Source: Methanosarcina barkeri MS
Lineage (GTDB): Archaea; Halobacteriota; Methanosarcinia; Methanosarcinales; Methanosarcinaceae
Direction of reading: 5' to 3'
DNA: 64,000 bases
NCBI RefSeq assembly: GCF_000970025.1
Contig: NZ_CP009528.1
Span: 2,095,168-2,159,167 of the forward strand
The stretch's first letter is position 1. Each line of letters begins with the position of its first letter. The notes under the pieces were generated by a model that made no database searches, was not told the DNA's origin, and saw only the letters and a list, made by a program, of their open reading frames with translations. This document shows positions 7,804 through 57,030 of this stretch, piece by piece. Made by a program: the position numbers and the translations under genes.

Positions 7804-7902
7804 AGGTAATCTGATCAGGTAATCTGGTCAGGTAATCTGGTCAGGTAATTGGGTCAGGTAATCGGGTTAGATAATTGGGTTAGATAATCGAGTCAGGTAA
7901 TT
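7804..7902. repeat. 13-bp tandem array, about 7.6 units
   Basis: The unit AGGTAATCTGGTC is repeated with increasing divergence toward the right (GGTAATTGGGTC, AGATAATTGGGTT, AGATAATCGAGTC). It starts 33 bp after the stop codon of the DUF2173 gene. The sequence drift from left to right suggests successive slippage duplications. Confidence 0.9.
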
Positions 7903-8190
7903 ATTTCATTTTTATCAGGCAGGTCTGCCTGCATTATGGGCAGTTTGCCGAATTTATCTGTAATCTTTGCCGAATTTATCTGTAACCCTTTTATAGCTTG
8001 CCTGTATCTTGCCCAAAGCCTTAATTCAAGCCTTTAAATTAGGTTACACTTTTCTTACAACACAGCTAATAAAATGATATTGTCTTTGATTATACCATCA
8101 CTTATATACCATTACTTACATAGTAATAATTGGTCCATAGGGTCAGTCCCGATGTATAAAGAAGACGTACAAAGAAAGTATGTAACTTGA

Positions 8191-29844: not shown

Positions 29845-31123
29845 GAGGCTCTCAAATTAGAATTTTGACTTAAAAACTTATTCTTTTTTCCACTAACTCT
29901 GATAGCACTTGTCTCTGTTTGGTAGTGGCAACTTAAAACAATACCTTCTATGCCTTTCTCATGTCAAAAAACAGTATGTTATACAAAGGAGTCCTCTTTG
30001 AGGACTCCTTCGATAATTATTTGAGCAGAGAAAGTACTTCAATTTGCCAATTCCTGTACTTTCTTTGCATTGACGATATTGCAAAGCACGTCGAACGTAC
30101 TTTTTACACCAACAAAAGTTGGCACTTTAAGTACAGTGTTTCTTCTATGATAAAACTGTTTGTTGTGAAGTGTTTCAGGCAACTCTCATATGATAAAACC
30201 ATTTCTTCCTTAACAGAAGAAGAAGCTATCCTGCTTTCTTTTTATGATGAAAATGGCCAGATTAAACTTCCTTCAGGTGGAACCCTTCATCATTTTATGA
30301 AGTATAGACTTGGAGAAAAAGGAGTCAATGAGATAATGATGCTTATAGGTGAGAAAATTCTCAAACTTTCTCAGGAAAAGGAAGCAAAAATTGATTCCAC
30401 TCCACTTGAAGCTTCAAGATACGACAAACATGCTGATTATAATCCTCATTATGAATGCAAAATGGATAAGGCACATATTACAATGGTTGGAACTTATCCA
30501 ATTTTCATGACTCATACAAAAGGACTTTCTGGTGACTCTCCAGAACTTATCGACCATATTGAGGCTCTAAAGAACATGAACGCTAATCTGGAATTTTATT
30601 CTGCTGACGGAGGTTATGATTCATTCCTCAATCATTCTGATATTTGGTATAATCTGAACGCAAAACCGATTATTTCCTACGCTTCAAATGCAGTAATCAA
30701 TCAAGAAGGTGAAGAGGAACGAATCGATCACTGGGTGAATAAAAAGTGGAAACTCGGTGGAGATATTCATGCACCAATGGAAAACAAACTCAGATTTCTA
30801 TATGAAATTGGAAGGAAAGAACAGGTAGGAATGTACCTAAGAAACCAAAATATCAGAGATGAGACTTTTGATGATCAGTATAAAAAGAGAGCTGAATGTG
30901 AAAAGATACATGGACATATTAAAGGTACAGTAAAGTTCGATATCAGAAGAGTGAGAAATCAGAGTAGAAAACTCTACTCTCTATTGAGTTTCATAGCATA
31001 TCAACTACTGGTGTTGACAGAAATGCAAAATAAAGTTGAGGATAAGAATTCGTTTGGGAGATACTTTTAAAAAAGTGAGTATCAAATTAGATTTGAGATT
31101 TTAAAAGCTAATTTGAGATTCTC
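29845..31123 (+). mobile_element. Insertion sequence, copy 1 (1279 bp, IS4/IS5-type DDE), inside a pentapeptide gene
   Basis: Ends were set by comparison with copy 2 at 55752-57030. Terminal inverted repeats are GAGGCTCTCAAATTAG at the left and GAGAATCTCAAATTAG at the right (as read inward), 14 of 16 identical. The target duplication CTTCA flanks it at 29840-29844 and 31124-31128. One transposase gene fills most of the element. Both ends are intact, so it may be mobile. Confidence 0.95.
29961..31070 (+). CDS. IS4/IS5-type DDE transposase (copy 1)
   Basis: 369 residues. The catalytic region is seen in order: [20 protein letters not shown] (first D), [20 protein letters not shown] (second D) and [20 protein letters not shown] (E), ending with [21 protein letters not shown]-terminal residues 50-130 form the helical DNA-binding part. 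The copy at 55805-56914 differs visibly at only one residue (SLTEEEA here, SLTDEEA there), so the two copies are recent. An inverted repeat of GGAGTCCTC/GAGGACTCC near 29989-30010 lies at the start of the coding region and could form a hairpin limiting translation. Confidence 0.93.
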
Positions 31124-40326: not shown

Positions 40327-41633
40327 GATTCCTACTCCAGAAAATAATTTAATATACCGAGTTGTGAGGATATTATTCCTAATCTTGAGACTGCACGCTG
40401 ATTTGAAGAAATACCTTACTGATTAACTTTCAAATTTTTTATTAGTAAGCATGAAAAAATAAATCAATAAGAACAAGAAATTGCATTATACACAAATAAA
40501 TAAAGTAAACTTTACTTATCAATACAAAGAAAAACACCGTTTAACACCTGTTATTAAAGGGCATTTTAAATAACAATAGCCTCACAAATTCTCAAATGCT
40601 CACCTCAATATCGTAAACAATTACGTAATTTCAGCTCAATTTTAGTTTACTTGTATAAAAGACTAAGATTTTAGATAATAATCATTAGCCAAAAAGGTAA
40701 TAATAACTAGAAAATAGACCAAAAATAACATCGAATGCTATTTATTGAATTGTGATAAATTTAATAGACGAATTGCAAATCAGATAAAAATATTTTAAAA
40801 AGTTAAACAAAGAAAGCATATTCTGTGAAAAAATTGAATTTTGTAGGATGTTACAGTAACGAGAAAATTAAATTTTGAAGAAAATTATAATTCCGTGAAG
40901 GAAAGAAGTAATTACTGAGTATAAAATTGTATTGTACCCATTATATATTAAAATTTTAACAGTGTGCAAAAATAAACATAAAAATAATTATAAAGATTTT
41001 ATGGGAAATTCAAACTGATGGAAAAAATGATTACAAAATGCATTACTTTTGACTGTTGTATTTCTTTCCTTATGACAAATTTATGTAAGCAATATTAATA
41101 GAGAGAATTTTGTGGATAATTTTTCAATGTTACCTCTAAGGCTCAAACTTATTATCGATTTTGTTAGATTTATATCCAATTATTCAGATTACAATGTATA
41201 GATTCCAAAATAAATCCATTATTAATGTGAAATCCATTGATCCATAGATAGATTCAAAATTTCAGATTTGTGGACATAATTTGGAATCGGTGTGCTGAAA
41301 AATGGAAGTAATGGGTAAGCTAATTTAACTCATTATGACCATCTGCTAACTGAGGATACAAAGTTAAGCAGTATACCTCCCATAATACCTCTTTAATAAC
41401 TGTTAGTTAAGCCCAGATGAAAAAATCAAATGCAGTCAGCACAGCCAGAGTTTATGTGGAAGATACTAAAAGATGTATCAACTGCATAAACCTATAAACT
41501 TCACCGAAAAAAGAGTTTCATAAATATTCCCTCAAAGTTCGAAAAAACGCAAAAACAGCTTGGAAGCAAATTCAGGGCTCATTCTAAGGAGTCCTAAATC
41601 TTCTCATTAATTTCACATTTTTCCCGGATAACA

Positions 41634-41736
41634 GTTAGCCTGCCACTTCAAGGAGTCCGAATTCCTTTCCCGAGTACACCTTTTATGGGATACGCAGGTT
41701 CCGCACAGGCTAACCTAACCCCTATGAAAACATAGG
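41634..41736 (+). ncRNA. Candidate structured RNA element A (homologue of element B at 45956-46069)
   Basis: A perfect 9-bp outer stem, GTTAGCCTG (41634-41642) with CAGGCTAAC (41706-41714), encloses the core CTTCAAGGAGTCCGAA, which begins three bases after the 5' arm. A terminal hairpin CCTATG-AAAA-CATAGG (41721-41736) and AGGAG follow. Element B keeps the same order and spacing. Two stem positions differ by compensatory pairs (C-G to T-A, A-T to G-C). The strand is a guess: the + strand reading keeps GAAAA and AGGAG like a leader. It could instead be a transposon-derived hairpin. No known Rfam class was recognised. Confidence 0.45.
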
Positions 41737-41848
41737 AGAAATTATATAACGAAATAGGAAAATATATCTTTTTCGTATGGATTTAAAGTTTTTTTGATAA
41801 TGGTAGTGCATTGATTCCAAAGTATGTCCAAAATGACTTATTTGAAAC

Positions 41849-41922
41849 CCACGGGAGACATGGAAGACACGGAAATAAGTAGTAAAGGCGTGGTTCTTCC
41901 GTGATTTCCGTGTTTTCCGTGG
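41849..41922. repeat. Long imperfect inverted repeat
   Basis: The left arm CCACGGGAGACATGG... (41849-41874) pairs with the right arm ending TTTTCCGTGG (41897-41922), about 20 of 26 positions matching. The arms contain internal direct repeats of CACGGAA/TTCCGTG. A further TTTTCCGTGTTAC lies at about 41962. It has the look of a REP-like or worn transposon end. No coding potential. Confidence 0.6.
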
Positions 41923-42205
41923 TTATAATATCCAGATCAAATCATTTTGCTACAGGTTGTGTTTTCCGTGTTACAGAATTCTATATGGCTTTAAAATAAT
42001 ACCTGCGTCATCAGCTGTAATTATTTTCTTATTATGTATTTATTTGAGATCGATGAATTAGATTATTAAAAAAGCAATTTCAAGTCTGGAGATTCTAGAA
42101 AGCCGATGAAACAGAAAATACGGAATAAAACTAAAAAGGTCTTCATTTTTTTATAATTAAGAGAGCAGGTTATTATCCAACAAGCTATGAATAATTAACC
42201 ATAGA

Positions 42206-42265
42206 ATTTTATTTCAGGCAAATACCTTCTATAGTTTGCTACAGAGTATTTGCCTGAAATAAAAT
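42206..42265. repeat. Perfect 20-bp inverted repeat with 20-base loop
   Basis: ATTTTATTTCAGGCAAATAC at 42206-42225 is the exact reverse complement of 42246-42265. The perfect arms suggest selection or recent origin, for example a small mobile element or a strong RNA hairpin in the 3' region of the propeller gene. Confidence 0.85.
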
Positions 42266-42328
42266 ACTGAATTTTCATTAAAATGATGAACAGTTCTTTG
42301 TAAAACGAACCTAACAAAAAAGTAATAT

Positions 42329-42348
42329 GCAAAGGTTTGCACCTTTGC
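42329..42348 (-). terminator. Candidate terminator of the propeller protein gene
   Basis: An 8-bp stem GCAAAGGT/ACCTTTGC with a 4-base loop, 10 bases after the stop codon at 42358. On the minus strand it is followed by ATATTACTTTTTTG. This is a better intrinsic-type terminator than most in the window. Confidence 0.6.
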
Positions 42349-42357
42349 AAAATCTTT

Positions 42358-43626
42358 TTAATTAACCTGGTAAAGGTATCCGTCGTCATTTCCGAAGTAT
42401 GCATAGTTGTCGGATATTGCCACACCTGCAAGGCTGTATGTAGCATTTGGTGGTCCGTTGGATGTGATGCTATAGCCGTTACCTAAATCTGTTATGCGAT
42501 ATACAAGCCCATCTCCATCATTACCTGTAACAAATATCAGTGGGTTGTTTATACCGTCATCGGCGACTGCTGGTGAGGACTGGATATTGCCAATCTCATC
42601 CTCCTCCGTCACCCAGTGACTAGCCAATGTGGTAGCATTCAAACAGTACAAATAGCCACCATTAATCATAGAGCCACACCCCACATAAATCCTGTCATCA
42701 GCTGCGTTGTACGCTGGCGTTGAAGTGCTACTATATACCATTTGGGAGCTTGTTGTGTGTGTGCTTAAATTACCGGTGTTTGGATCAATTGCAACAGCAT
42801 GCACATATTTGTCCTTCCCAGCGACATATATAAGGTGATCATCCGCGTTATAAGTAGCAGATGATCGTATCTGTTTATTGGACAGATCTGTCTCATTAAC
42901 TTTTGTTCCATCGGAGATACTGACAGATGTCAATGTCCCAGCATCGTCAGGATATACTAAATAGTTTCCCACAACTGCGGCGCCTGCCCAGTAGTAGCCA
43001 CCACCTGTAGTAGTTTCTCTACTCCATATCTCAGTACCATTATCTGCATAAAAAGCAAAATATGTACCATCATCGCTCAGGTTAACAGGGTCGGTCGTGC
43101 TCATGTTAACGGTTCCTACGAAAAGTTTTCCTACGCCGTTGTCATTATAGTATGTGATGGGACAGGAACACTGCTGTGATGCCGGAGCAAAGTTTGTACT
43201 CCACTTTTCAGTCATGTTGCTGGCATAGACAGCTGTAATCTTTTGTTGATTAGAACCATAGCCTGTGTCCACGACATAAATGATATTGTTACCATCTGAA
43301 GCGGGGTTAGCATTCTGGATTCCTGTTGCTGCCACTGTACAATCAGCTACATAATTAAGTGTAGATTTGTCATATTTGTAGAGCTTGCTTGCTCCTTCCA
43401 CATATACATAGTTACCCAGTACAACAGGAACAGTTTCAATTCCACTACCGACAAGGGTGTTCCCGTTTACGGAAATGGTGGCATCATCAGGTCCTTCATC
43501 GCTTGTTATACCCGTATGTTTTTCATTTTTCTGGAACTGTGACCAGTTACTTGCGGCTGCTACCGATGCAAATGCCACAAGCATTATCATTACACATACT
43601 AATAGTGAAAAATGTTTATTTTTCAT
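42358..43626 (-). CDS. Secreted PQQ-like beta-propeller protein
   Basis: 422 residues. Signal peptide 1-25 (LLVCVMIMLVAFASVAAA). The mature protein begins NWSQFQKNEKHTGIT, the entry strand typical of these propellers, then has blades of the form GNYVYVEGASKLYKYDKST, KITAVYASNMTEKWSTNF, GTLTSVSISDGTKV, YVHAVAIDPNTGN and GYLYQVN at the end. It is not an enzyme by sequence: no quinoprotein dehydrogenase motifs are seen. The same propeller type occurs twice in the 2183-residue protein at 46422-52973 (FIWSGAVVVGNYLVYP there, YYWAGAAVVGNYLVYP here). It is probably a surface-binding or scaffold protein. ATG 43626 follows AGAGGAATAGGCGA. Divergent from the DUF4430 gene. Confidence 0.9.
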   Translation of the reverse strand: MKNKHFSLLVCVMIMLVAFASVAAASNWSQFQKNEKHTGITSDEGPDDATISVNGNTLVGSGIETVPVVLGNYVYVEGASKLYKYDKSTLNYVADCTVAATGIQNANPASDGNNIIYVVDTGYGSNQQKITAVYASNMTEKWSTNFAPASQQCSCPITYYNDNGVGKLFVGTVNMSTTDPVNLSDDGTYFAFYADNGTEIWSRETTTGGGYYWAGAAVVGNYLVYPDDAGTLTSVSISDGTKVNETDLSNKQIRSSATYNADDHLIYVAGKDKYVHAVAIDPNTGNLSTHTTSSQMVYSSTSTPAYNAADDRIYVGCGSMINGGYLYCLNATTLASHWVTEEDEIGNIQSSPAVADDGINNPLIFVTGNDGDGLVYRITDLGNGYSITSNGPPNATYSLAGVAISDNYAYFGNDDGYLYQVN

Positions 43627-44209
43627 TCGCCTATTCCTCTCTTTTTTCTTTAAAGATCAGTAGAATAGCTATTCCAACTATGACCCTCTCCTCCCCTGGA
43701 AAGCCTTACTGGTCCAAACCTACGATTTTGAAATGCCTCACACTTTTCAACTTCATTCTTTTATTGAAAGTTTCCAACTCTTGTTTTTCGACTATCCAGT
43801 AAAAATAATAATCGTGGATTTTTGAGCGATCATTAAAAAATAATGGTAAGCGTATTGTTATTTATGAGGACATCTGGGGAAAGATCAATTAAACAAGGTC
43901 ATTTTTATATACTCTTCAAAAGTATATAGTTCAATTTTTTTGGATGATAACTGTAACTCAAAAGAATAATATCATGTCTCTAATTTCTTATTTTTTATTT
44001 AGGCTAAATAGAAGCCATACCTATGAAGAATACATAACCAATAGCAATAGCAATAATCTTTCATTTTTAACTAACACTTATGATCTAAATTAAAAGAGCT
44101 ATAGGTATAAAAATAACATATATGTAAATATGTGAGGATCGAAGTATAAAATAAAACATTTACTATATTTTTGTTATATCCGCGCATATATCCTAGAAGA
44201 GGACTAAAT
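43627..44209. promoter_or_regulatory. Divergent promoter region between propeller and DUF4430 genes
   Basis: 583 bp without a gene, so both divergent surface-protein genes must be driven from here. TATA-like sequences are present (TTTTTATATACT near 43903 and AACATATATGTAAATATG near 44125). Their use is inferred. No clear operator was found. Confidence 0.4.
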
Positions 44210-44965
44210 ATGAAAAATAAAATAACAAGTATAGTCTTAATTGCACTCCTCAGTGCAATAATGATTGGTACAGCAGCAGCACAACCTGCCGAGATATTTA
44301 ATGGAACTGTTGCGTTAGAAGACGGTACGTTTACCTTTGTTCCATCAAACGATCCTTCTAACAGTTACCAGGTGGAAAACCTTACAGATCACGGTGCACT
44401 TGATGCGGCTTCAAATGATGAGACCAGCGGATTCACGTATAATGCATCTGACGAGTACTATGAGGACTATGGTTCTTTTTACCTTACTGATATTAACGGA
44501 GTGCAAGATAATTATGGAGCAAGTACATCTTGGTTTGTTTACATAAACGGTGAGCTTGCTCCACTGGGCCTCAGTCAGAACGTAATTAAAGATGATGATC
44601 AGGTTACATTCATGTATGCTCCTTATGAGTATACAGCGAACGAAGTCACTGTGGATACAGCAAATGCGTCATATATTGTTGATATAAAAGTAGAAGTTGA
44701 GGATGCATTAACATCTATTGAAGATCTCCAGGGATACATTGATAACCTTGACACTCCCTCTCTAACAAAATGTATTTTTACAGCAAGCCTTGACGGTGTA
44801 GTTTATTCACTGGAAAATGGCCGGGATCAGATAGCCATCTTTAAACTCCAGTGCTTTAAGAATATTGTCCAAAGGCAGGAAAACTGGGGCAATCTTTCTC
44901 CCGAAGAAGCGGAATATATTAGTAATGAAGCAGACCACATTATTGAACTGATACAAAATTCCTGA
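44210..44965 (+). CDS. Secreted DUF4430 (transcobalamin-like) domain protein
   Basis: 251 residues from ATG 44210, which has GAGG seven bases upstream; a TTG at 44171 is less likely. Signal peptide 1-24 (SIVLIALLSAIMIGTAAA). Residues about 30-155 contain the DUF4430 pattern: SFYLTDINGVQDNYGASTSW, FVYINGELAPLGLSQNVIKD, DDQVTFMYAP. This domain is related to the C-terminal domain of transcobalamin and intrinsic factor, which contacts cobalamin, although binding is not shown for DUF4430. Residues 165-251 are helical and unrecognised. The position between propeller proteins and near the CobN-like gene suggests a shared surface role. Confidence 0.85.
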   Translation: MKNKITSIVLIALLSAIMIGTAAAQPAEIFNGTVALEDGTFTFVPSNDPSNSYQVENLTDHGALDAASNDETSGFTYNASDEYYEDYGSFYLTDINGVQDNYGASTSWFVYINGELAPLGLSQNVIKDDDQVTFMYAPYEYTANEVTVDTANASYIVDIKVEVEDALTSIEDLQGYIDNLDTPSLTKCIFTASLDGVVYSLENGRDQIAIFKLQCFKNIVQRQENWGNLSPEEAEYISNEADHIIELIQNS

Positions 44966-46421
44966 AGGGTAAGCCCTTCTTTAACTTTTTTGGAAAAAAT
45001 TTCATATCTTTTCTCGCTCTACGTAATTTTTAATGTATTTGAGGTTTTGCCATTTTTCACATAATCCCTTTATTTCCGCTAATATTAAATAGCATAGCTT
45101 ATTTCTTGAAAAATTTATATAATAATTACTTAAAATCTATTTAATTCTTTGTTTTTATTTAAAGTTGGAATTAGAATAATAAATAGCTTATTAATTAAGA
45201 AATAAACTTTATTTGAGTTTTCAAAACATAATAAATATGTATATATATATATATTTTTATGCAAGTTATAACTATAAATTGCAATAAATTTTAATTTTGA
45301 AAGTAAATGTAATATTATATCAATTTTTGAACTTAATTAGTATTCAAAGGCATTTTGAAGTATTATTTTAGAGGCTTAAAAAGTAATTTTATGTCAAAAT
45401 ACGTGATTTTGACTGATTTTTTAGATTTTAGAGAATTTTTATCAACTTTGGCAGAGCCTCATTTCATTCAAAATATCCTTTAATATTTGTAACTTATGTG
45501 GCACTTTTTGTATTTCGATGTTTTTCCATTTACATCAATTAATTTTACTCAATTTTATTTGTTTTATCTTTTCTTTTTTTTATAAATATGTTAATAAACA
45601 ACGAAAAATTCATATATTTCATATGTGTTTTCTATAAATAAATAAATATTACTTTATTTAGATTTTAAATAGAATTTGCCCCCAAATCTTTAATCTTAGC
45701 AGGGGCGTCAAACAGAAAAATTATTTGTATACAGTCAACACTCGAAAATGTCATACAGCATCAGATTTTGTGTCGAAATTTTAAATATAAATTATGAAAA
45801 TTAGAAAGTTGCCAGTCAAGTTAGAAACTGTTATTGGTAGTTTTCAAACTTACGTATTATCACCGATAATTGAATATAAATACCACAGATATAATGAAAG
45901 TTCAGGAAGCTAAAAATTTCCTGCAACATATGTTTCAAATAATCTTAAAACTCGATTGGTCTGACGCTTCAAAAGGTCCGAAACTCGATCCTGCCGCATC
46001 CACAATACCAAAAATGCGGTCAGATTCTTCTGCCCAGACCAACCGATAACCCTATGAAAATACAGGAGGTCTTCAAAAAAAACTGAAACTACTTGTTTTT
46101 CTTTATATAGATCTTACTTTTAATTTTTGCTTTTTGTTTTTTGTTTGAGCCATATTGGAAGTGATTGAAATTTTTGAAACGATGTTAACTCTATAAACGG
46201 TAGTACATTGCCATAAATGAGGTCATAGCTGCCTGTAATTGCTGGAGGTACTCATCAGCAACACCAGAATACTGATAGACCTATTTCTAGAGCTAATGCA
46301 ACTGCCATGTAGATATCTGGAGATTCACCAACTTAATGGACTGAACCTAAAAACCTGGCAGCAGGAAAAAATGTTGCTGCCTCCTTATTTAATAATATCA
46401 AAAATAATGGAGTAACAAAAT
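44966..46421. other. 1.45-kb gene-free region with RNA-like element B
   Basis: No gene. Very AT-rich up to about 45660, including a TATATATATATA run near 45241. A GCCCC...GGGGC inverted pair lies at about 45680-45708. Element B follows at 45956-46069, then 350 bp of leader before the giant protein. Confidence 0.5.
45956..46069 (+). ncRNA. Candidate structured RNA element B (homologue of element A)
   Basis: An outer stem TTGGTCTG (45956-45963) pairs with CAGACCAA (46035-46042). Three bases after the 5' arm comes CTTCAAAAGGTCCGAA, matching element A. An internal hairpin CCGCAT/ATGCGG (45994-45999/46014-46019) is perfect. After the outer stem, TAACCCTATGAAAATACAGG and AGG resemble the A terminal hairpin. 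It lies in the same direction as, and about 350 bases upstream of, the 2183-residue surface protein, so it could be a leader element; a free small RNA or mobile-element end is also possible. Confidence 0.5.
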
Positions 46422-49400
46422 ATGTTAAAAATTATGAAAAATGTGATAATAAATAGGACACAAAATAGTACACAAAACAGAATAAAAAATATTACCAAAA
46501 ACGGCTTTCTTTTAAGTATATTCTTTATCCTGTTGTTTGTCTTTGTCGGATCTGCGTCGGCACAAACTATTGAAGTCAACCCTGGGGCTGATATCCTCAC
46601 AAAAATTGATGAAGCACAGGCTGGAGATGTCATATACTTCAACCCCGGAACTTATGATATAAGTCAGAATTGGAATATATACAACAAACCTCTATCGTTT
46701 ATAGGGGCAGGTGCAGATAAAGTAACTTTTAATTTTAATGATTATACTGACCTAAATTTTGACTTCTCTGATATCGAAACTGCCCATGATATTCTGATTG
46801 AGAACATAAGCTTTTCAGCGTCCACTTCGCCCAGTATGAGATATGTCTCTGTCCGTGGATCAAATTCTTATTCTACTAATGTAATAATCAGAAACTGTAA
46901 AATTAACCATATGCGTTTAAGTTCAACTATACTGAACAATATTGAACTTTCGAATAATACATACATATCCGACTCATCAAGCAGCACTGGTAATGTTTAT
47001 GGGAAACTGATAATTACCGAAAATCAATTTGATAATAGTCCTTGTAGCGTGAGCAGGATAAATAATGGTGGTGTGATTGCAGGCAACACCTTTACAAACA
47101 TTACTTCTGACTATGCATTTTCTATTAGTAGGGGAGACGACATAACATTCAGTGATAATGTAATTTCACACTGCACCGGAGGAGGTTTATCGATAAATTC
47201 TTACTGTGATCGCAATATTATTACAGGGAACACCTTTGACTCCAATTCTGTAGGGATCACTTTTGAATTGAAAAATGGAAAAACTGGCACCGGCAATAAG
47301 ATTTACCACAACAACTTCATTAACAACACCGTCAACATCAATGACGATTCACCGGCTGGTTCCGTCCAGTACGTCAGCGATGCTGTAAAATATAGCTACA
47401 AGAACAAGTCCTATACCTCCTCTCTCGGCAACTACTACAGCGACTACACTGGCGCAGATGATGATAACAATGGAATCGGTGACACTTCTTATGCATTTGG
47501 CTCCTCAAGTGACACTGCGCCCCTTATGGGTAAGATCACAGTCAGTGGAGATAATATAACAATTGCAGTACCACCGAATGCTTCCGTTCCAATAGCCGAT
47601 TTCACGGCAACACCGACTTCTGGGAATGCTCCTCTAACAGTTAATTTCACAGACGCTTCAACTGGTGACGTTTCTTCCTATTCATGGGACTTTGATAACG
47701 ACGGTACGGTTGATAGCACGGAGCAAAACCCCTCGCATACTTACGAGACTGCGGGTACCTACTCTGTTAACCTCACAGTTGTCAATACAACCATAAGTAG
47801 CACAAAAACAAAGACTGACTATATTGAAGTAATAAACAAAGAGAGCCTTGGATCCGAATGGCCGGAGTTCCAGAAGGACAGCTCAAACAGTGGGTATACC
47901 CTCAGCTCTGCTCCAACCAGGGACCCGGAACTCATCTGGCAAAGTCTTACTTCTTCAAATCAGGAACCCTGCGGGAGCGGGGGTGTCAATGTACCACCTC
48001 TGATTTCAGGAAACAAGATCTTCGTAACTGCTGGTAATGCCTCTGTCTGGGCCTTTAACAAAGATACCGGATCTCTTATCTGGTCAAAGGAGCTTGGTGG
48101 TGGTCTGGTACAGACAGCAACTCCTGCACTGGGAGATGGAAAACTCTTTGTCCCTACCCTTGAAGGAGACCTCTATGCCCTTGATCCAGAAACTGGAAAT
48201 AAACTCTGGAAAACACACGTAACAGAAAGTAACTTTGAGTGTCCCATTACCTATTACGACCATAAACTCTACATCGGAGACGGTCTTGAAGGAGGAAGTG
48301 GAGACAAATATTACTACTGTTACGATGACAGCGGGAACTTAGTATGGAAGCACAAAAACACAAACACTTCCGGCTTTATCTGGAGTGGGGCAGTAGTTGT
48401 CGGAAACTATCTGGTATACCCTGTTTTTGAAGGTAAACTGGTCTGTCTCGATAAAGACACCGGAACTTTTGTAGATGAAGTTGACTTCAGCAAGAGTTCA
48501 GATGTATCCTTTGCACTAACCGATCCCGGAATGTTCAGAAGTTCCGTAACCTATGCTGACGGCGCTCTGTACACATCCTCTGAAAGAGGACAGGAAACCG
48601 GCTACTGCTTCAAAGTAGGTTTTAACCCTGATACAGGTCAGTTCCTCAACACCGGCTGGGCAACGTCAATAGGATTTTCCACATCAACTCCGGTAGTGTA
48701 TAACGGAAGGGTCTACGTGGGACACGGGGAACACGGAGAATCCGGGTCCATGTTCTGCCTGAACGATTCCGATGGATCCGTCATATGGGAAACCCCAGTT
48801 AGTGGAGGTGTAAAGTCCTCACCTGTCGTTTCTATCAAGAATGGAAAACCATACATCTACTTCACAGAAGCTATCGTGGACGGATCTATTTACTGTCTGA
48901 ACCCTGACGGAACACTTGCCTGGCACTATAACCCACCTGCAGATGATGCATACACCCTTCAGGGAGCGGCTCTTTCCGACGACAAGGTCTACTACGGAAC
49001 TGATAACGGGTACCTCTACTGCATAGGACAGGGTGAAGCCCTCTCTCCAGCGGCAAACTTCAGTTCGGACAAACAGACGGGCTCCTTCCCACTGACTGTT
49101 TCCTTTAAAGATACATCCCTTAACGCCAATAAGTTCCTCTGGGACTTCGGAGATGGGAACACCTCAACCGAAGTAAATCCGGTTCATACATATATCACAG
49201 TCGGAAACTATACCGTAACCCTCACCGTTAAAAACGAGAACGGTGAAGATACAAAAGTTGCCAAAGACTATATCTACGCAAACAAAGCCCCAACAACATG
49301 GACGGTTAAAAATGGGGAGTCAATACAGGCAGCTATTGATGCAGCAAATTCAGGGGACATAATACAGGTCTATTCTGGAGAATACCATGAAGTCCTGACC

Positions 49401-52400
49401 GTTAACAAGACCCTGACCCTCAAAGGTATAGAAGATCCTGTCCTGAACGCTTCGGGTTTCACAGGCGTATCCGGCGTAACCATCAGCGCTGACGGCGTGG
49501 AGTTCAGCGGGTTTAAAATTATAGGGACAGAAGAGATGTGCTTTGCGATCAGTATTTCTTCAGAAGGTACTCTGATAGAGGACAACCTGATAGATGACTG
49601 CGCTGAAGGTGTATGGTTAACTGGGACTGGAAACACCCTTCAGGGAAACAATATTTCCAATTGCTGGGACTTTGCAGCCGTTCTTGACAACACAGGAGGC
49701 AACAGAGTCTACCAGAACACATTAATTAACAACAACGGCAGGAAGATGGGAGGTTCAAGCGACCACATATCTGGGGGGTCAGGCTCATTCTTCCAGAGCT
49801 CCGAGCCTGTGGAATATTTCTGGAATGGAACAAAACTGACCGGGTATATGGGTAATTACTACGATGACTATACCGGAAAAGACTTAAACGGGGATGGAAT
49901 AGGAGATACGGCTTACAATGCTGATGCTGGAACAGACCAGTACCCGCTGATGCTTCCTTTCTCGAATTATGGTGAAGAACAGGAAAACAACTCTATCCCC
50001 GAAGACTCCTGGTTCCAGTTCCACGGGAAAGTAGACCATCTTGGCTACTCTGAGAGCGGACCCAAAACCAACCGGACTGAATGGATAAGTGAAGACATAG
50101 ATGCTATCAGCAGTTCCTCACCGGTAATTGCAGGAGGGAAAGTCTTTGTTGTATGCGGTCCCGGATCAATGAGTGGTAGTACGGAAGATATTCCTCAGTT
50201 AGTAGCCCTGGATGAGTCTTCAGGAGACATAATCTGGAACGTCAGTATCCCTGCAGCAGTATACGGTTCCTGGGCTTCTCCTGCTTACGATAATGGTATG
50301 GTCTTTACGGCAACTGGACCTGAACTCGGATGTTATAATGCAAAAACAGGAGAAAAACTCTGGAGCTTTGACGACACGCTTGGATCTCAGGGTGTGGTCG
50401 GTAGCGGGCCTGCTATTGCTGATGGTAAGGTGATCTTTAACGATTGGGACGGAAGCCATTATTACTGTCTTGACGAGTACACTGGAGACCTGCTATGGAG
50501 CTTTAAAGTGAAGGGCGATGCTCAATCCGTACCTGCCTATGCGGACGGGAAATTCTACCTGACAAGCTGGGAATATGGTTCTTCCTACCAGGGAAATACT
50601 TACTGCGTGGATGCAGCAACCGGAAAACAGATCTGGCACACCAATAATGTCGTTGCGAGTTTATGCGGTTCTCCGGCTTACAAGAATGGAATCCTTTACC
50701 TGACAACTTACAACTTCTACGGAAATGGAGAGCTTCTTGCCTTAAATGCAGCTGATGGCCAGATAGTCTGGAAACAGTCAATTGAAAGATCGGATTCAAC
50801 TCCTGCTTTTGCCTATGGAAATGTCTACGTTTGCGGAGGAGCAAGTGGTTATAGCAATTTGCAAACTTACTGCTTCAATGCGACTACAGGCTCACCGGTC
50901 TGGTCAACGCCTTCAAAGACAACAGATGAAGGAGGTATCGGAGGTTGGACCTGCTCAGTAGCTGTTGCAGATGGGCTCGTTTATGTGGGAAGTGAAGGAA
51001 ACGGGTATTTCGGCTATGAAAACCTTTATGCTCTGGATGCCTTCACTGGCGATGTTATATGGAATGCTCCTTATGCCGGTTCTTCACCTGCACTTTCAGA
51101 CGGTATGCTTTTCAGTATAGGAGGCGACCAGAAAGTCTATGCCTTCAAGGACTCTTCCGCCTCACCTGTTGCGAACTTCATCGCAAATGTGACAAGTGGT
51201 AAAGCACCTCTGACGGTACAGTTCAATGACACGTCCTCAGGTTCACCGGCATCATGGGCCTGGGACTTTGAAAACGACGGCACTATTGACAGTACCGAGC
51301 AGAACCCAGTATATACCTATACTGAGGCAGGTAACTATACCGTAAATCTCACTATCAAGAACTCCGTCGGCAGCAACAGCACTGTAAAGACGGAATATAT
51401 CACTGTTTCTGAAACCTCAATACCTGCAGAACCGCCAGTTGCTGTATTCATAGCTGATGTAACGAGCGGTACTGCGCCTCTAACTGTCAACTTTACGGAT
51501 CAGTCCACAGGTTCTCCAACTTCCTGGCTCTGGGACTTCGGAGACGATGCTAACTCTACAGAGCAGAACCCAGTGCACACATACACATCAGCCGGTAACT
51601 ATACAGTCAACCTTACAGTTGCAAATGCAAATGGCACAAATTCAACCTCTGCTTTGATAACTGTTTCAGAAACATCTGCAATAGCACTTCCTGTAGCCAA
51701 TTTCACCAGTAATGTCAGCGAGGGTTCTGCTCCTCTCTCAGTCCAGTTTACAGATATATCTGAAAATGCAACAGAATGGAACTGGGACTTTGGAGACGGA
51801 GGTTCTTCAGATCAACAGAATCCGACACATCAGTATTCAAAAGCAGGAAATTACACAGTAGCACTTACAGCAATAAACGATGCAGGCAGTAATACAACAA
51901 CAAAAACAGATTATATAAAAGTGACAGAAATTACAAAACCTGTTACAAAACCTGTTGCAAACTTCACCAGCAGTGTTAGATCAGGAAAAACACCATTAAA
52001 GGTTGCCTTTACTGATACGAGTACTGGCTCCCCAACTTCCTGGTTCTGGAGCTTTGGAGACGGATCAAAGTCATATTTCCAGAATCCGACTCACAAGTAT
52101 TCAAAGGCAGGAGTATATACTGTTAACTTAACAGTAAAGAATGCTGCAGGCCGTAATACGGTAACAAAAACAGATTATATAAAAGTAGTAACAAAACCTG
52201 TTGCAAACTTCACCAGCAGTGCTACATCAGGAAAAACACCATTAAAGGTTACCTTTACTGACACAAGCACAGGCTCTCCAACTTCCTGGAAATGGGACTT
52301 TGGAGACGGATCAAAGTCATTCCACCAGAATCCGATTCACAAGTATTCAAAGGCAGGAATATATACTGTTAACTTAACAGTGAAGAATGCTATAGGACGT

Positions 52401-52973
52401 AACACGGTAACAAAAACAGATTATATAAAAGTGACGGGAGTTACAAAACCTGTTGCAAACTTTACCAGTAGTGTTACATCAGGAAAAGTACCATTAAAGG
52501 TTGCCTTTACTGATACAAGCACAGGAATACCTGCTAAATGGAAATGGGACTTTGGAGATGGGTCTAAGTCATACCTCCAGAATCCGACTCACAAGTATTC
52601 CAAAGTAGGAAGTTATACTGTTAACTTAACAGTAAAGAATGCTAAAGGCAGTAACACGGTAACAAAAACAGAATATATAAAAGTTGTAACAAAACCAGTT
52701 GCTGATTTCTCTGCAACTCCAACCTCTGGGAAAGCTCCGTTAAATGTTACCTTTACTGACAACAGTACAGGAGTTCCTACTGCATGGAAATGGAGTTTTG
52801 GAGATGGAACAACTTCCAGAGAACAGAATCCAGAACATCAGTATGTGCAGGGAGGAAGCTATAAGGTTACACTTACAGTGGTCAACGTTGCAGGCAGCAG
52901 TACTACAACGAAGAAAAACTACATAAAAGTGACAACAAATACAAGACCAGGCATATATTCTGAAAGCAAATAA
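46422..52973 (+). CDS. Giant secreted surface protein: NosD beta-helix, PQQ-like propellers and nine PKD domains
   Basis: 2183 residues. Signal peptide ends near residue 48 (FVFVGSASAQ). Domain order: NosD-like beta-helix (about 50-370), PKD 1 (389-470), propeller 1 (477-865, starting WPEFQKDSSNSGYT), PKD 2 (877-950), second beta-helix (957-1185), propeller 2 (1197-1575, starting WFQFHGKVDHLGYS), then seven PKD domains at about 1580, 1672, 1757, 1843, 1925, 2009 and 2091. The PKD units keep the WxWDFGDG and YTVNLTVKN strands; the last four are nearly identical, pointing to recent internal duplication. There is no C-terminal membrane anchor or sorting signal. Long repetitive proteins of this kind belong to Methanosarcina cell envelopes and may mediate adhesion. 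GGAG lies 11 bases before the ATG. Confidence 0.92.
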   Translation: MLKIMKNVIINRTQNSTQNRIKNITKNGFLLSIFFILLFVFVGSASAQTIEVNPGADILTKIDEAQAGDVIYFNPGTYDISQNWNIYNKPLSFIGAGADKVTFNFNDYTDLNFDFSDIETAHDILIENISFSASTSPSMRYVSVRGSNSYSTNVIIRNCKINHMRLSSTILNNIELSNNTYISDSSSSTGNVYGKLIITENQFDNSPCSVSRINNGGVIAGNTFTNITSDYAFSISRGDDITFSDNVISHCTGGGLSINSYCDRNIITGNTFDSNSVGITFELKNGKTGTGNKIYHNNFINNTVNINDDSPAGSVQYVSDAVKYSYKNKSYTSSLGNYYSDYTGADDDNNGIGDTSYAFGSSSDTAPLMGKITVSGDNITIAVPPNASVPIADFTATPTSGNAPLTVNFTDASTGDVSSYSWDFDNDGTVDSTEQNPSHTYETAGTYSVNLTVVNTTISSTKTKTDYIEVINKESLGSEWPEFQKDSSNSGYTLSSAPTRDPELIWQSLTSSNQEPCGSGGVNVPPLISGNKIFVTAGNASVWAFNKDTGSLIWSKELGGGLVQTATPALGDGKLFVPTLEGDLYALDPETGNKLWKTHVTESNFECPITYYDHKLYIGDGLEGGSGDKYYYCYDDSGNLVWKHKNTNTSGFIWSGAVVVGNYLVYPVFEGKLVCLDKDTGTFVDEVDFSKSSDVSFALTDPGMFRSSVTYADGALYTSSERGQETGYCFKVGFNPDTGQFLNTGWATSIGFSTSTPVVYNGRVYVGHGEHGESGSMFCLNDSDGSVIWETPVSGGVKSSPVVSIKNGKPYIYFTEAIVDGSIYCLNPDGTLAWHYNPPADDAYTLQGAALSDDKVYYGTDNGYLYCIGQGEALSPAANFSSDKQTGSFPLTVSFKDTSLNANKFLWDFGDGNTSTEVNPVHTYITVGNYTVTLTVKNENGEDTKVAKDYIYANKAPTTWTVKNGESIQAAIDAANSGDIIQVYSGEYHEVLTVNKTLTLKGIEDPVLNASGFTGVSGVTISADGVEFSGFKIIGTEEMCFAISISSEGTLIEDNLIDDCAEGVWLTGTGNTLQGNNISNCWDFAAVLDNTGGNRVYQNTLINNNGRKMGGSSDHISGGSGSFFQSSEPVEYFWNGTKLTGYMGNYYDDYTGKDLNGDGIGDTAYNADAGTDQYPLMLPFSNYGEEQENNSIPEDSWFQFHGKVDHLGYSESGPKTNRTEWISEDIDAISSSSPVIAGGKVFVVCGPGSMSGSTEDIPQLVALDESSGDIIWNVSIPAAVYGSWASPAYDNGMVFTATGPELGCYNAKTGEKLWSFDDTLGSQGVVGSGPAIADGKVIFNDWDGSHYYCLDEYTGDLLWSFKVKGDAQSVPAYADGKFYLTSWEYGSSYQGNTYCVDAATGKQIWHTNNVVASLCGSPAYKNGILYLTTYNFYGNGELLALNAADGQIVWKQSIERSDSTPAFAYGNVYVCGGASGYSNLQTYCFNATTGSPVWSTPSKTTDEGGIGGWTCSVAVADGLVYVGSEGNGYFGYENLYALDAFTGDVIWNAPYAGSSPALSDGMLFSIGGDQKVYAFKDSSASPVANFIANVTSGKAPLTVQFNDTSSGSPASWAWDFENDGTIDSTEQNPVYTYTEAGNYTVNLTIKNSVGSNSTVKTEYITVSETSIPAEPPVAVFIADVTSGTAPLTVNFTDQSTGSPTSWLWDFGDDANSTEQNPVHTYTSAGNYTVNLTVANANGTNSTSALITVSETSAIALPVANFTSNVSEGSAPLSVQFTDISENATEWNWDFGDGGSSDQQNPTHQYSKAGNYTVALTAINDAGSNTTTKTDYIKVTEITKPVTKPVANFTSSVRSGKTPLKVAFTDTSTGSPTSWFWSFGDGSKSYFQNPTHKYSKAGVYTVNLTVKNAAGRNTVTKTDYIKVVTKPVANFTSSATSGKTPLKVTFTDTSTGSPTSWKWDFGDGSKSFHQNPIHKYSKAGIYTVNLTVKNAIGRNTVTKTDYIKVTGVTKPVANFTSSVTSGKVPLKVAFTDTSTGIPAKWKWDFGDGSKSYLQNPTHKYSKVGSYTVNLTVKNAKGSNTVTKTEYIKVVTKPVADFSATPTSGKAPLNVTFTDNSTGVPTAWKWSFGDGTTSREQNPEHQYVQGGSYKVTLTVVNVAGSSTTTKKNYIKVTTNTRPGIYSESK

Positions 52974-55751: not shown

Positions 55752-57030
55752 GAGAATCTCAAATTAGCTTTTAAAATCTCAAATCTAATTTGATACTCAC
55801 TTTTTTAAAAGTATCTCCCAAACGAATTCTTATCCTCAACTTTATTTTGCATTTCTGTCAACACCAGTAGTTGATATGCTATGAAACTCAATAGAGAGTA
55901 GAGTTTTCTACTCTGATTTCTCACTCTTCTGATATCGAACTTTACTGTACCTTTAATATGTCCATGTATCTTTTCACATTCAGCTCTCTTTTTATACTGA
56001 TCATCAAAAGTCTCATCTCTGATATTTTGGTTTCTTAGGTACATTCCTACCTGTTCTTTCCTTCCAATTTCATATAGAAATCTGAGTTTGTTTTCCATTG
56101 GTGCATGAATATCTCCACCGAGTTTCCACTTTTTATTCACCCAGTGATCGATTCGTTCCTCTTCACCTTCTTGATTGATTACTGCATTTGAAGCGTAGGA
56201 AATAATCGGTTTTGCGTTCAGATTATACCAAATATCAGAATGATTGAGGAATGAATCATAACCTCCGTCAGCAGAATAAAATTCCAGATTAGCGTTCATG
56301 TTCTTTAGAGCCTCAATATGATCGATAAGTTCTGGAGAGTCACCAGAAAGTCCTTTTGTATGAGTCATGAAAATTGGGTAAGTTCCAACCATTGTAATAT
56401 GTGCCTTATCCATTTTGCATTCATAATGAGGATTATAATCAGCATGTTTGTCGTATCTTGAAGCTTCAAGTGGAGTGGAATCAATTTTTGCTTCCTTTTC
56501 CTGAGAAAGTTTGAGAATTTTCTCACCTATAAGCATCATTATCTCATTGACTCCTTTTTCTCCAAGTCTATACTTCATAAAATGATGAAGGGTTCCACCT
56601 GAAGGAAGTTTAATCTGGCCATTTTCATCATAAAAAGAAAGCAGGATAGCTTCTTCGTCTGTTAAGGAAGAAATGGTTTTATCATATGAGAGTTGCCTGA
56701 AACACTTCACAACAAACAGTTTTATCATAGAAGAAACACTGTACTTAAAGTGCCAACTTTTGTTGGTGTAAAAAGTACGTTCGACGTGCTTTGCAATATC
56801 GTCAATGCAAAGAAAGTACAGGAATTGGCAAATTGAAGTACTTTCTCTGCTCAAATAATTATCGAAGGAGTCCTCGAAGAGGACTCCTTTGTATAACATA
56901 CTGTTTTTTGACATGAGAAAGGCATAGAAGGTATTGTTTTAAGTTGCCACTACCAAACAGAGACAAGTGCTATCAGAGTTAGTGGAAAAAAGAATAAGTT
57001 TTTAAGTCAAAATTCTAATTTGAGAGCCTC
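55752..57030 (-). mobile_element. Insertion sequence, copy 2 (1279 bp), inverted relative to copy 1
   Basis: Same length and ends as copy 1: GAGAATCTCAAATTAG at 55752 and the complement of GAGGCTCTCAAATTAG ending at 57030. It is flanked by a 5-bp target duplication, TAGAA, at 55747-55751 and 57031-57035. The right edge lies 41 bp before the start codon of the Yip1-like gene, so it may alter that gene's promoter. Confidence 0.95.
55805..56914 (-). CDS. IS4/IS5-type DDE transposase (copy 2)
   Basis: 369 residues, identical to the copy at 29961-31070 except for D instead of E in the SLT(D/E)EEA segment as far as I can see. Catalytic blocks are [21 protein letters not shown] and [10 protein letters not shown]. 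The start and its GGAGTCCTC/GAGGACTCC inverted repeat are conserved. Near-identity with intact ends on both copies indicates recent transposition. Confidence 0.93.
   Translation of the reverse strand: MSKNSMLYKGVLFEDSFDNYLSRESTSICQFLYFLCIDDIAKHVERTFYTNKSWHFKYSVSSMIKLFVVKCFRQLSYDKTISSLTDEEAILLSFYDENGQIKLPSGGTLHHFMKYRLGEKGVNEIMMLIGEKILKLSQEKEAKIDSTPLEASRYDKHADYNPHYECKMDKAHITMVGTYPIFMTHTKGLSGDSPELIDHIEALKNMNANLEFYSADGGYDSFLNHSDIWYNLNAKPIISYASNAVINQEGEEERIDHWVNKKWKLGGDIHAPMENKLRFLYEIGRKEQVGMYLRNQNIRDETFDDQYKKRAECEKIHGHIKGTVKFDIRRVRNQSRKLYSLLSFIAYQLLVLTEMQNKVEDKNSFGRYF

Follow-up and report, generated by a model that had tools for sequence, protein, structure and literature searches.

To our knowledge, archaea have so far yielded few families of structured regulatory RNA. 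Within the genus Methanosarcina, sRNA162 and sRNA154 of M. mazei are regulatory RNAs that act on mRNAs. Among riboswitches, the glycine and cobalamin switches are examples of tandem arrangements. In archaea, intrinsic termination is signalled by U-tracts.

In this study, we analysed a stretch of 64,000 nt from Methanosarcina barkeri MS (the window), in which a first-pass annotation had pointed out two copies, A and B, of an undescribed RNA-like element whose pairing appeared to be under selection. Both parts of that description hold, given the covariation found on a larger alignment and the absence of a match in Rfam. No Rfam 15 family reached the gathering threshold in the window, and none matched A, B or a third type of copy, C, in six related loci. 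At relaxed thresholds no credible Rfam 15 match appeared in the A/B region or in the A-B-C leader of one relative (G001), and the Rfam cobalamin models matched neither strand. A, B and C are almost certainly members of a real structured RNA family that Rfam has not catalogued.

Elements A and B in the window

Two elements with a common architecture are indeed present, A at 41630-41741 and B at 45951-46071, both on the forward strand. The 3-base gap, CTTCAA...GTCCGAA and CCCTATGAAAA...AGGAG described earlier are found in each, and both retain CUUCAA, GUCCGAA, UUCCGC (UUCUGC in B) and CCCUAUGAAAA...AGGAG. The two compensatory differences between their outer stems are real (A-U versus G-C and C-G versus U-A). 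The supposed worn core copy at 41583-41601 did not survive: its aligned counterpart in other species (GGCCCCTTTTCTGGGGTCT, for instance) is unlike the core, and no model reports the site.

Element A is free-standing and has the full fold, P1-P2-P3-P4. The 5' arm of its outer stem P1, GTTAGCCTG (41634-41642), pairs with the 3' arm, CAGGCTAAC (41706-41714), as judged from inspection and covariation, and for the 5' arm also from folding. The P2 hairpin, placed by folding, carries the UCCGAA loop at 41650-41667. The P4 hairpin, CCTATG-AAAA-CATAGG (41721-41736), overlaps a ribosome-binding-site-like AGGAG at 41734-41738. A U-tract follows at 41769-41773, approximately 30 nt past the GGAG, and is a possible transcript end.

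Element B is the distal leader copy of a giant PKD gene. Its P1 arms, CGATTGGTCTG (45953-45963) and CAGACCAACCG (46035-46045), were located by inspection and covariation, with folding as further support for the 5' arm. The P2 region with its UCCGAA loop (45974-45986) was taken from the alignment of B copies, and P3, CCGCAT...ATGCGG, spans 45994-46019. Inspection and a survey of start codons showed that the P4 region, CCCTATGAAAATACAGGAGG (46050-46069), contains GGAGG without a start codon. The U-tract after B, TTTTTCTTT (46096-46104), is a putative terminator or attenuator. As noted earlier, B lies in sense, and its end is approximately 350 nt upstream of the gene that it probably serves (46422-52973, forward strand). 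This gene encodes a single giant surface protein of 2183 aa, in which a domain search found nine PKD stretches, a PQQ propeller and NosD. The window holds A and B only; C is absent.

The proposed covariance-model check was carried out with two models. R1 was built from 32 aligned B-type copies with no A copy included, and R2 was built from A, B and C. R1 recovered A with E=3e-9 in a 414-kb search, and R2 matched A with E=1.8e-14; both matched B. The third-best match of R2 in the window reached only E=8.2. The folding z-scores were -3.6 for A and -2.9 for B. The resemblance of A and B is more than chance.

The elements do not coincide with transposase ends, an outcome that the annotation had named as contrary to its proposal. 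The copies lie between surface-protein genes, and the two transposase genes of the window are about 10 kb away. No insertion-sequence or transposon ends were matched in the examined flanks, which consist of surface proteins, propellers and CobN-like proteins. The two transposase genes are DDE_Tnp_1 reading frames with identical Pfam scores and lengths (29961-31070, forward; 55805-56914, reverse), one on either side of the region and oppositely oriented. A near-perfect inverted repeat with arms of about 27 nt (42203-42268) separates A from the propeller gene; it is single-copy in the genome and without a match in the 30 other genomes of the genus (E<=1e-5), possibly a bidirectional terminator or a remnant. 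A DUF4430 protein is encoded between the propeller gene and B (44171-44965) and is mostly missing from the otherwise matching locus of G003.

Fold, covariation and family

The fold consists of an outer stem (P1), a hairpin with the UCCGAA loop (P2), a variable stem (P3) and a terminal GGAG hairpin (P4). Loss of covariation in a larger alignment had been set as a test against the structure; instead, the covariation grew. In the alignment of A, B and C, two-sided changes occur at 24 of 28 pairs. Doubly changed cells numbered 204; shuffles gave 74 +/- 8 and slid partners no more than 60. The covariation score was 0.31, compared with at most 0.11 for slid partners. Because this alignment had been adjusted to the model, two further checks matter. 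With a MAFFT alignment of A and B that had not been fitted to a structure, RNAalifold found P1 and its two-sided changes. When all column pairs were ranked by mutual information, the proposed structure accounted for 8 of the 13 strongest. Within B copies alone, two-sided changes are seen in P1 and in P3 (5 of 8 P3 pairs).

P2 is short, is common to A, B and C, and has a nearly invariant UCCGAA loop, which appears from its sequence to resemble a tRNA T-loop. The unpaired strands CUUC, UCCGAA and UUCCGC are conserved in all three subfamilies. In A and C, P4 forms a nearly perfect hairpin; in most B copies it has imperfections, which make the pairing of the Shine-Dalgarno-like sequence weak. UUCC and GGAG could form a pseudoknot (CUUCC:GGAGG in B, UUUCC:GGAGA in C); this proposal rests on one subfamily-level change, and the position fails in A. 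A mini-ORF within P4 (AUG AAA ACA UAG) was also considered and rejected, since no Shine-Dalgarno sequence precedes it and many B copies have AUA for AUG.

With B as query, BLAST returned copies in 6 of the 31 Methanosarcina genomes, clustered and on the same strand. R2 finds approximately 72 copies: 2 in the genome of the window, 27 in G001, 5 in G003, 20 in G004, 9 in G024 and 9 in G028. Multi-copy arrays occur in other species; like the C copies of relatives and the conserved U-tracts after A and B, they had escaped the annotation. R1 also recovers the A copies of the relatives, and it recovers C weakly (E about 1e-3 to 0.6), always immediately upstream of a surface-protein start codon. No copies beyond the same six genomes were found in the order (186 genomes, R1), in the remaining 232 of 238 genomes of the class (R2), or in the viral contigs and plasmids searched. 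A pattern scan of genome contigs returned two expected contigs of Methanosarcina spelaei, one Euryarchaeota MAG and scattered single bacterial matches, the last in about the number that we estimate to arise by chance for such a gapped pattern.

In a FastTree phylogeny, A (support 0.995, copies from 5 genomes) and C (0.973) separate from the B copies, and each clade spans several species, so that the three positions are old and distinct. The tree indicates that the subfamilies are older than the species splits. Three copies (L087:7659-7771, L135:488-600 and L088:2187-2308) are intermediate between A and B, score 42-59 bits with R1 and may represent a fourth subfamily.

Several other features were observed at the arrays of G004. 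Tandem repeats of 19-20 bp, AATTAGTTCAATCAGATAC, lie directly upstream of some B copies in L085 and L083 and are possible regulator sites. In L084 (about 7840-8050, reverse strand), an insertion of about 190 nt with inverted ends, TTTGACAG/CTGTCAAA, splits one leader between B and C and is apparently a small mobile element. Next to one A copy, at L086:16056-16204 (reverse strand), is a fragment of a group II intron (RF02012), whose score of 35.5 bits barely exceeds the gathering cut-off.

Placement in surface-protein leaders

The full leader has a distal B followed by a proximal C, about 300-600 nt apart. A sense gene lies downstream of B in all 33 assessable copies, with its start codon about 260-760 nt away. 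In all 19 C copies, AGGAG or AGGAA stands 5-10 nt before the ATG of a long surface-protein reading frame, and the GGAG of P4 occupies the position of the ribosome-binding site. The sampled B copies have no start codon at the position of this ATG. Likewise, A has no conserved start codon and no conserved reading frame; most A copies carry ACG where C carries ATG, and two copies in G001 retain ATG and an ORF of 9-12 codons. The retention of GGAG in A and B without a start codon suggests that GGAG is part of the core and that C has borrowed it as a ribosome-binding site.

No recognisable C precedes the PKD gene of the window or the genes of G003. Leaders that lack C (46105-46421 in the window, and L080, L081 and L090) share another conserved block before the start codon, which in G003 and G028 reads ...TGAACCTAAAAATCTGGAGACAGC...ATGGAGTAACAATATG and may be either a C that has diverged greatly or a module unrelated to it.

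There are one or two A copies per genome, at the head of an array or close to it. This subfamily is the most tightly conserved, and its block has sharp limits: conservation is strong between P1 and the U-tract and slight beyond them. The first run of four T residues after GGAG begins at 28-31 nt in 8 of 8 A copies and at 25-33 nt in 32 of 34 B copies; in both cases the U-runs lie outside the aligned core. Since such tracts signal termination in archaea, it is plausible that A ends at its tract and that B has an attenuator. A hairpin before the U-tract (P5) is modest in A (mean z -1.7); the corresponding hairpin before the U-tract of B is unsupported (mean z -0.2) and was discarded.

The genes downstream encode surface proteins of the PKD, PQQ-propeller, NosD or LRR kind, with PQQ_2 in 23 and PKD in 22 of 28. 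These proteins are paralogous and 25-84% identical to the protein of the window, and part of the similarity among their leaders is therefore shared ancestry. Homologues of the N-terminal 350 residues of one member (E<=1e-20) occur in exactly the six genomes that bear the RNA; that is, the RNA and the giant PKD/propeller protein family are found in the same 6 of 31 genomes.

In each of the six genomes, one array or more is flanked by divergent CobN-like genes, which represent two different CobN paralogues. The annotation had implied a partnership between the element and CobN. However, G030 and G026 lack the element and yet encode orthologues of CobN (95% and 90% identity). We therefore rejected control of CobN by the RNA; adjacency is not dependence, and CobN is neighbourhood context rather than a regulated partner. 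In G030, the neighbour of CobN reads as a cbiM-like cobalt-transport gene.

Proposed function, alternatives and relation to known systems

Given its place before surface-protein genes and within their ribosome-binding sites, the motif probably acts as a switch for these genes. We favour, as reasonably likely on the sequence evidence, a single family of cis-regulatory leader RNAs, comprising A, B and C, of the paralogous giant surface proteins of Methanosarcina. The core, formed by P1, the UCCGAA-loop P2, P3, the CUUC and UUCCGC joining strands and GGAG, would bind a small molecule or a protein. In C, binding would alter the pairing of GGAG, either with CCCUAUG in P4 or with UUCC in the pseudoknot. 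Because the ribosome-binding site is part of the C fold, opening or closing either pairing could switch translation. In B, the core is followed by a U-tract, so that early termination of transcription could be set there. A may be a short RNA that shares this fold and terminates at its U-tract. As a first candidate for the trigger we would name, with low confidence, a metal or tetrapyrrole signal, because of the CobN neighbours and a proteome study reporting that, in M. barkeri, both the PKD surface proteins and the CobN-like BtuS proteins change with the iron and sulfur source (PMC10846266).

The element might instead be a constitutive structured leader that stabilises or processes very long mRNAs, or fixes their level of translation, without sensing. 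The copies lie in sense upstream of very long reading frames, and the fold as such requires no partner. We nevertheless think this unlikely: conserved unpaired strands in three ancient subfamilies suggest a binding core, and stability alone would explain neither a ribosome-binding site within the element in every C copy nor the upkeep of A without a reading frame.

It is also possible, though again doubtful, that A is a trans-acting small RNA or a decoy, which either titrates the binding partner of B and C or pairs through its CCCCUAUG arm with CAUAGGAGG of the leaders. The conservation of A, its sharp bounds, its U-tract at a fixed distance, its lack of a conserved start codon and its place near array starts are consistent with such a role, and its P4 arm is complementary to the ribosome-binding site of C. 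However, any copy would be complementary in this way, since the near-palindrome is common to all of them, and A could be a leader that has lost its gene, given the two G001 copies with a short ORF. A trans-acting A would add to the leader RNA reading and would not exclude it. Both might be joined in a three-part circuit, in which A acts in trans (as a partner decoy or by pairing with ribosome-binding sites), B attenuates and C gates the ribosome-binding site. We regard this combination as rather speculative; if it is true, one signal would coordinate the whole surface-protein array at both transcription and translation.

A role at the DNA level, as a transcription-factor operator or as a recombination site that shuffles or converts surface-protein genes, appears improbable. 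Same-strand repeat arrays before paralogous genes might be expected of such an element, and P4 of A is a perfect DNA palindrome. However, the palindrome is broken in B, and the P1 arms differ among A, B and C while their pairing is kept, which argues against a sequence-specific operator. In addition, C overlaps the ribosome-binding site, inside the predicted transcript, and no recombinase or transposase lies beside the copies examined. Passive hitchhiking, in which the leaders are alike solely through recent gene duplication, is in line with the paralogy of the downstream proteins and the co-occurrence of RNA and genes, but is very improbable in view of the doubly compensated changes and the shuffle and slid-partner controls, the age of the subfamilies, the conservation of A without a gene and the constant distance of the U-tract.

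If the leader RNA reading is true, a genetically tractable methanogen would gain a shared control, at the RNA level, over giant adhesin-like surface proteins, and a switch of this kind, covered by no current Rfam family, would be a rare archaeal example. It also raises a testable question: is the same signal read by the same core in a free RNA, in a putative attenuator and at a ribosome-binding site?

As in riboswitches, a conserved and covarying structure is present in an mRNA leader together with an expression platform, namely the ribosome-binding site within P4 of C and the fixed-distance U-tract of A and B as a putative terminator. C resembles translational riboswitches and protein-binding leaders that mask the ribosome-binding site in its multi-stem core, its unpaired conserved strands and the Shine-Dalgarno sequence in the last hairpin. 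It differs from them in belonging to no Rfam 15 family and in being confined to one archaeal genus; moreover, A and B keep a Shine-Dalgarno-like GGAG without a start codon. The cobalamin riboswitch may share a tetrapyrrole or metal theme through the CobN-like genes beside the arrays, but its Rfam models found no match and CobN orthologues occur without the element. sRNA162 and sRNA154 are likewise archaeal regulatory RNAs of the same genus, whereas the present family, compared with them through the Rfam library alone, is found in 6 of 31 species-level Methanosarcina genomes. Like tandem riboswitches and attenuators such as those of glycine and cobalamin, the full leader contains one fold twice, B and then C. 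However, B and C belong to separate ancient subfamilies with different outputs (a U-tract and a ribosome-binding site), several hundred nucleotides apart, and a third, free-standing subfamily, A, accompanies them here.
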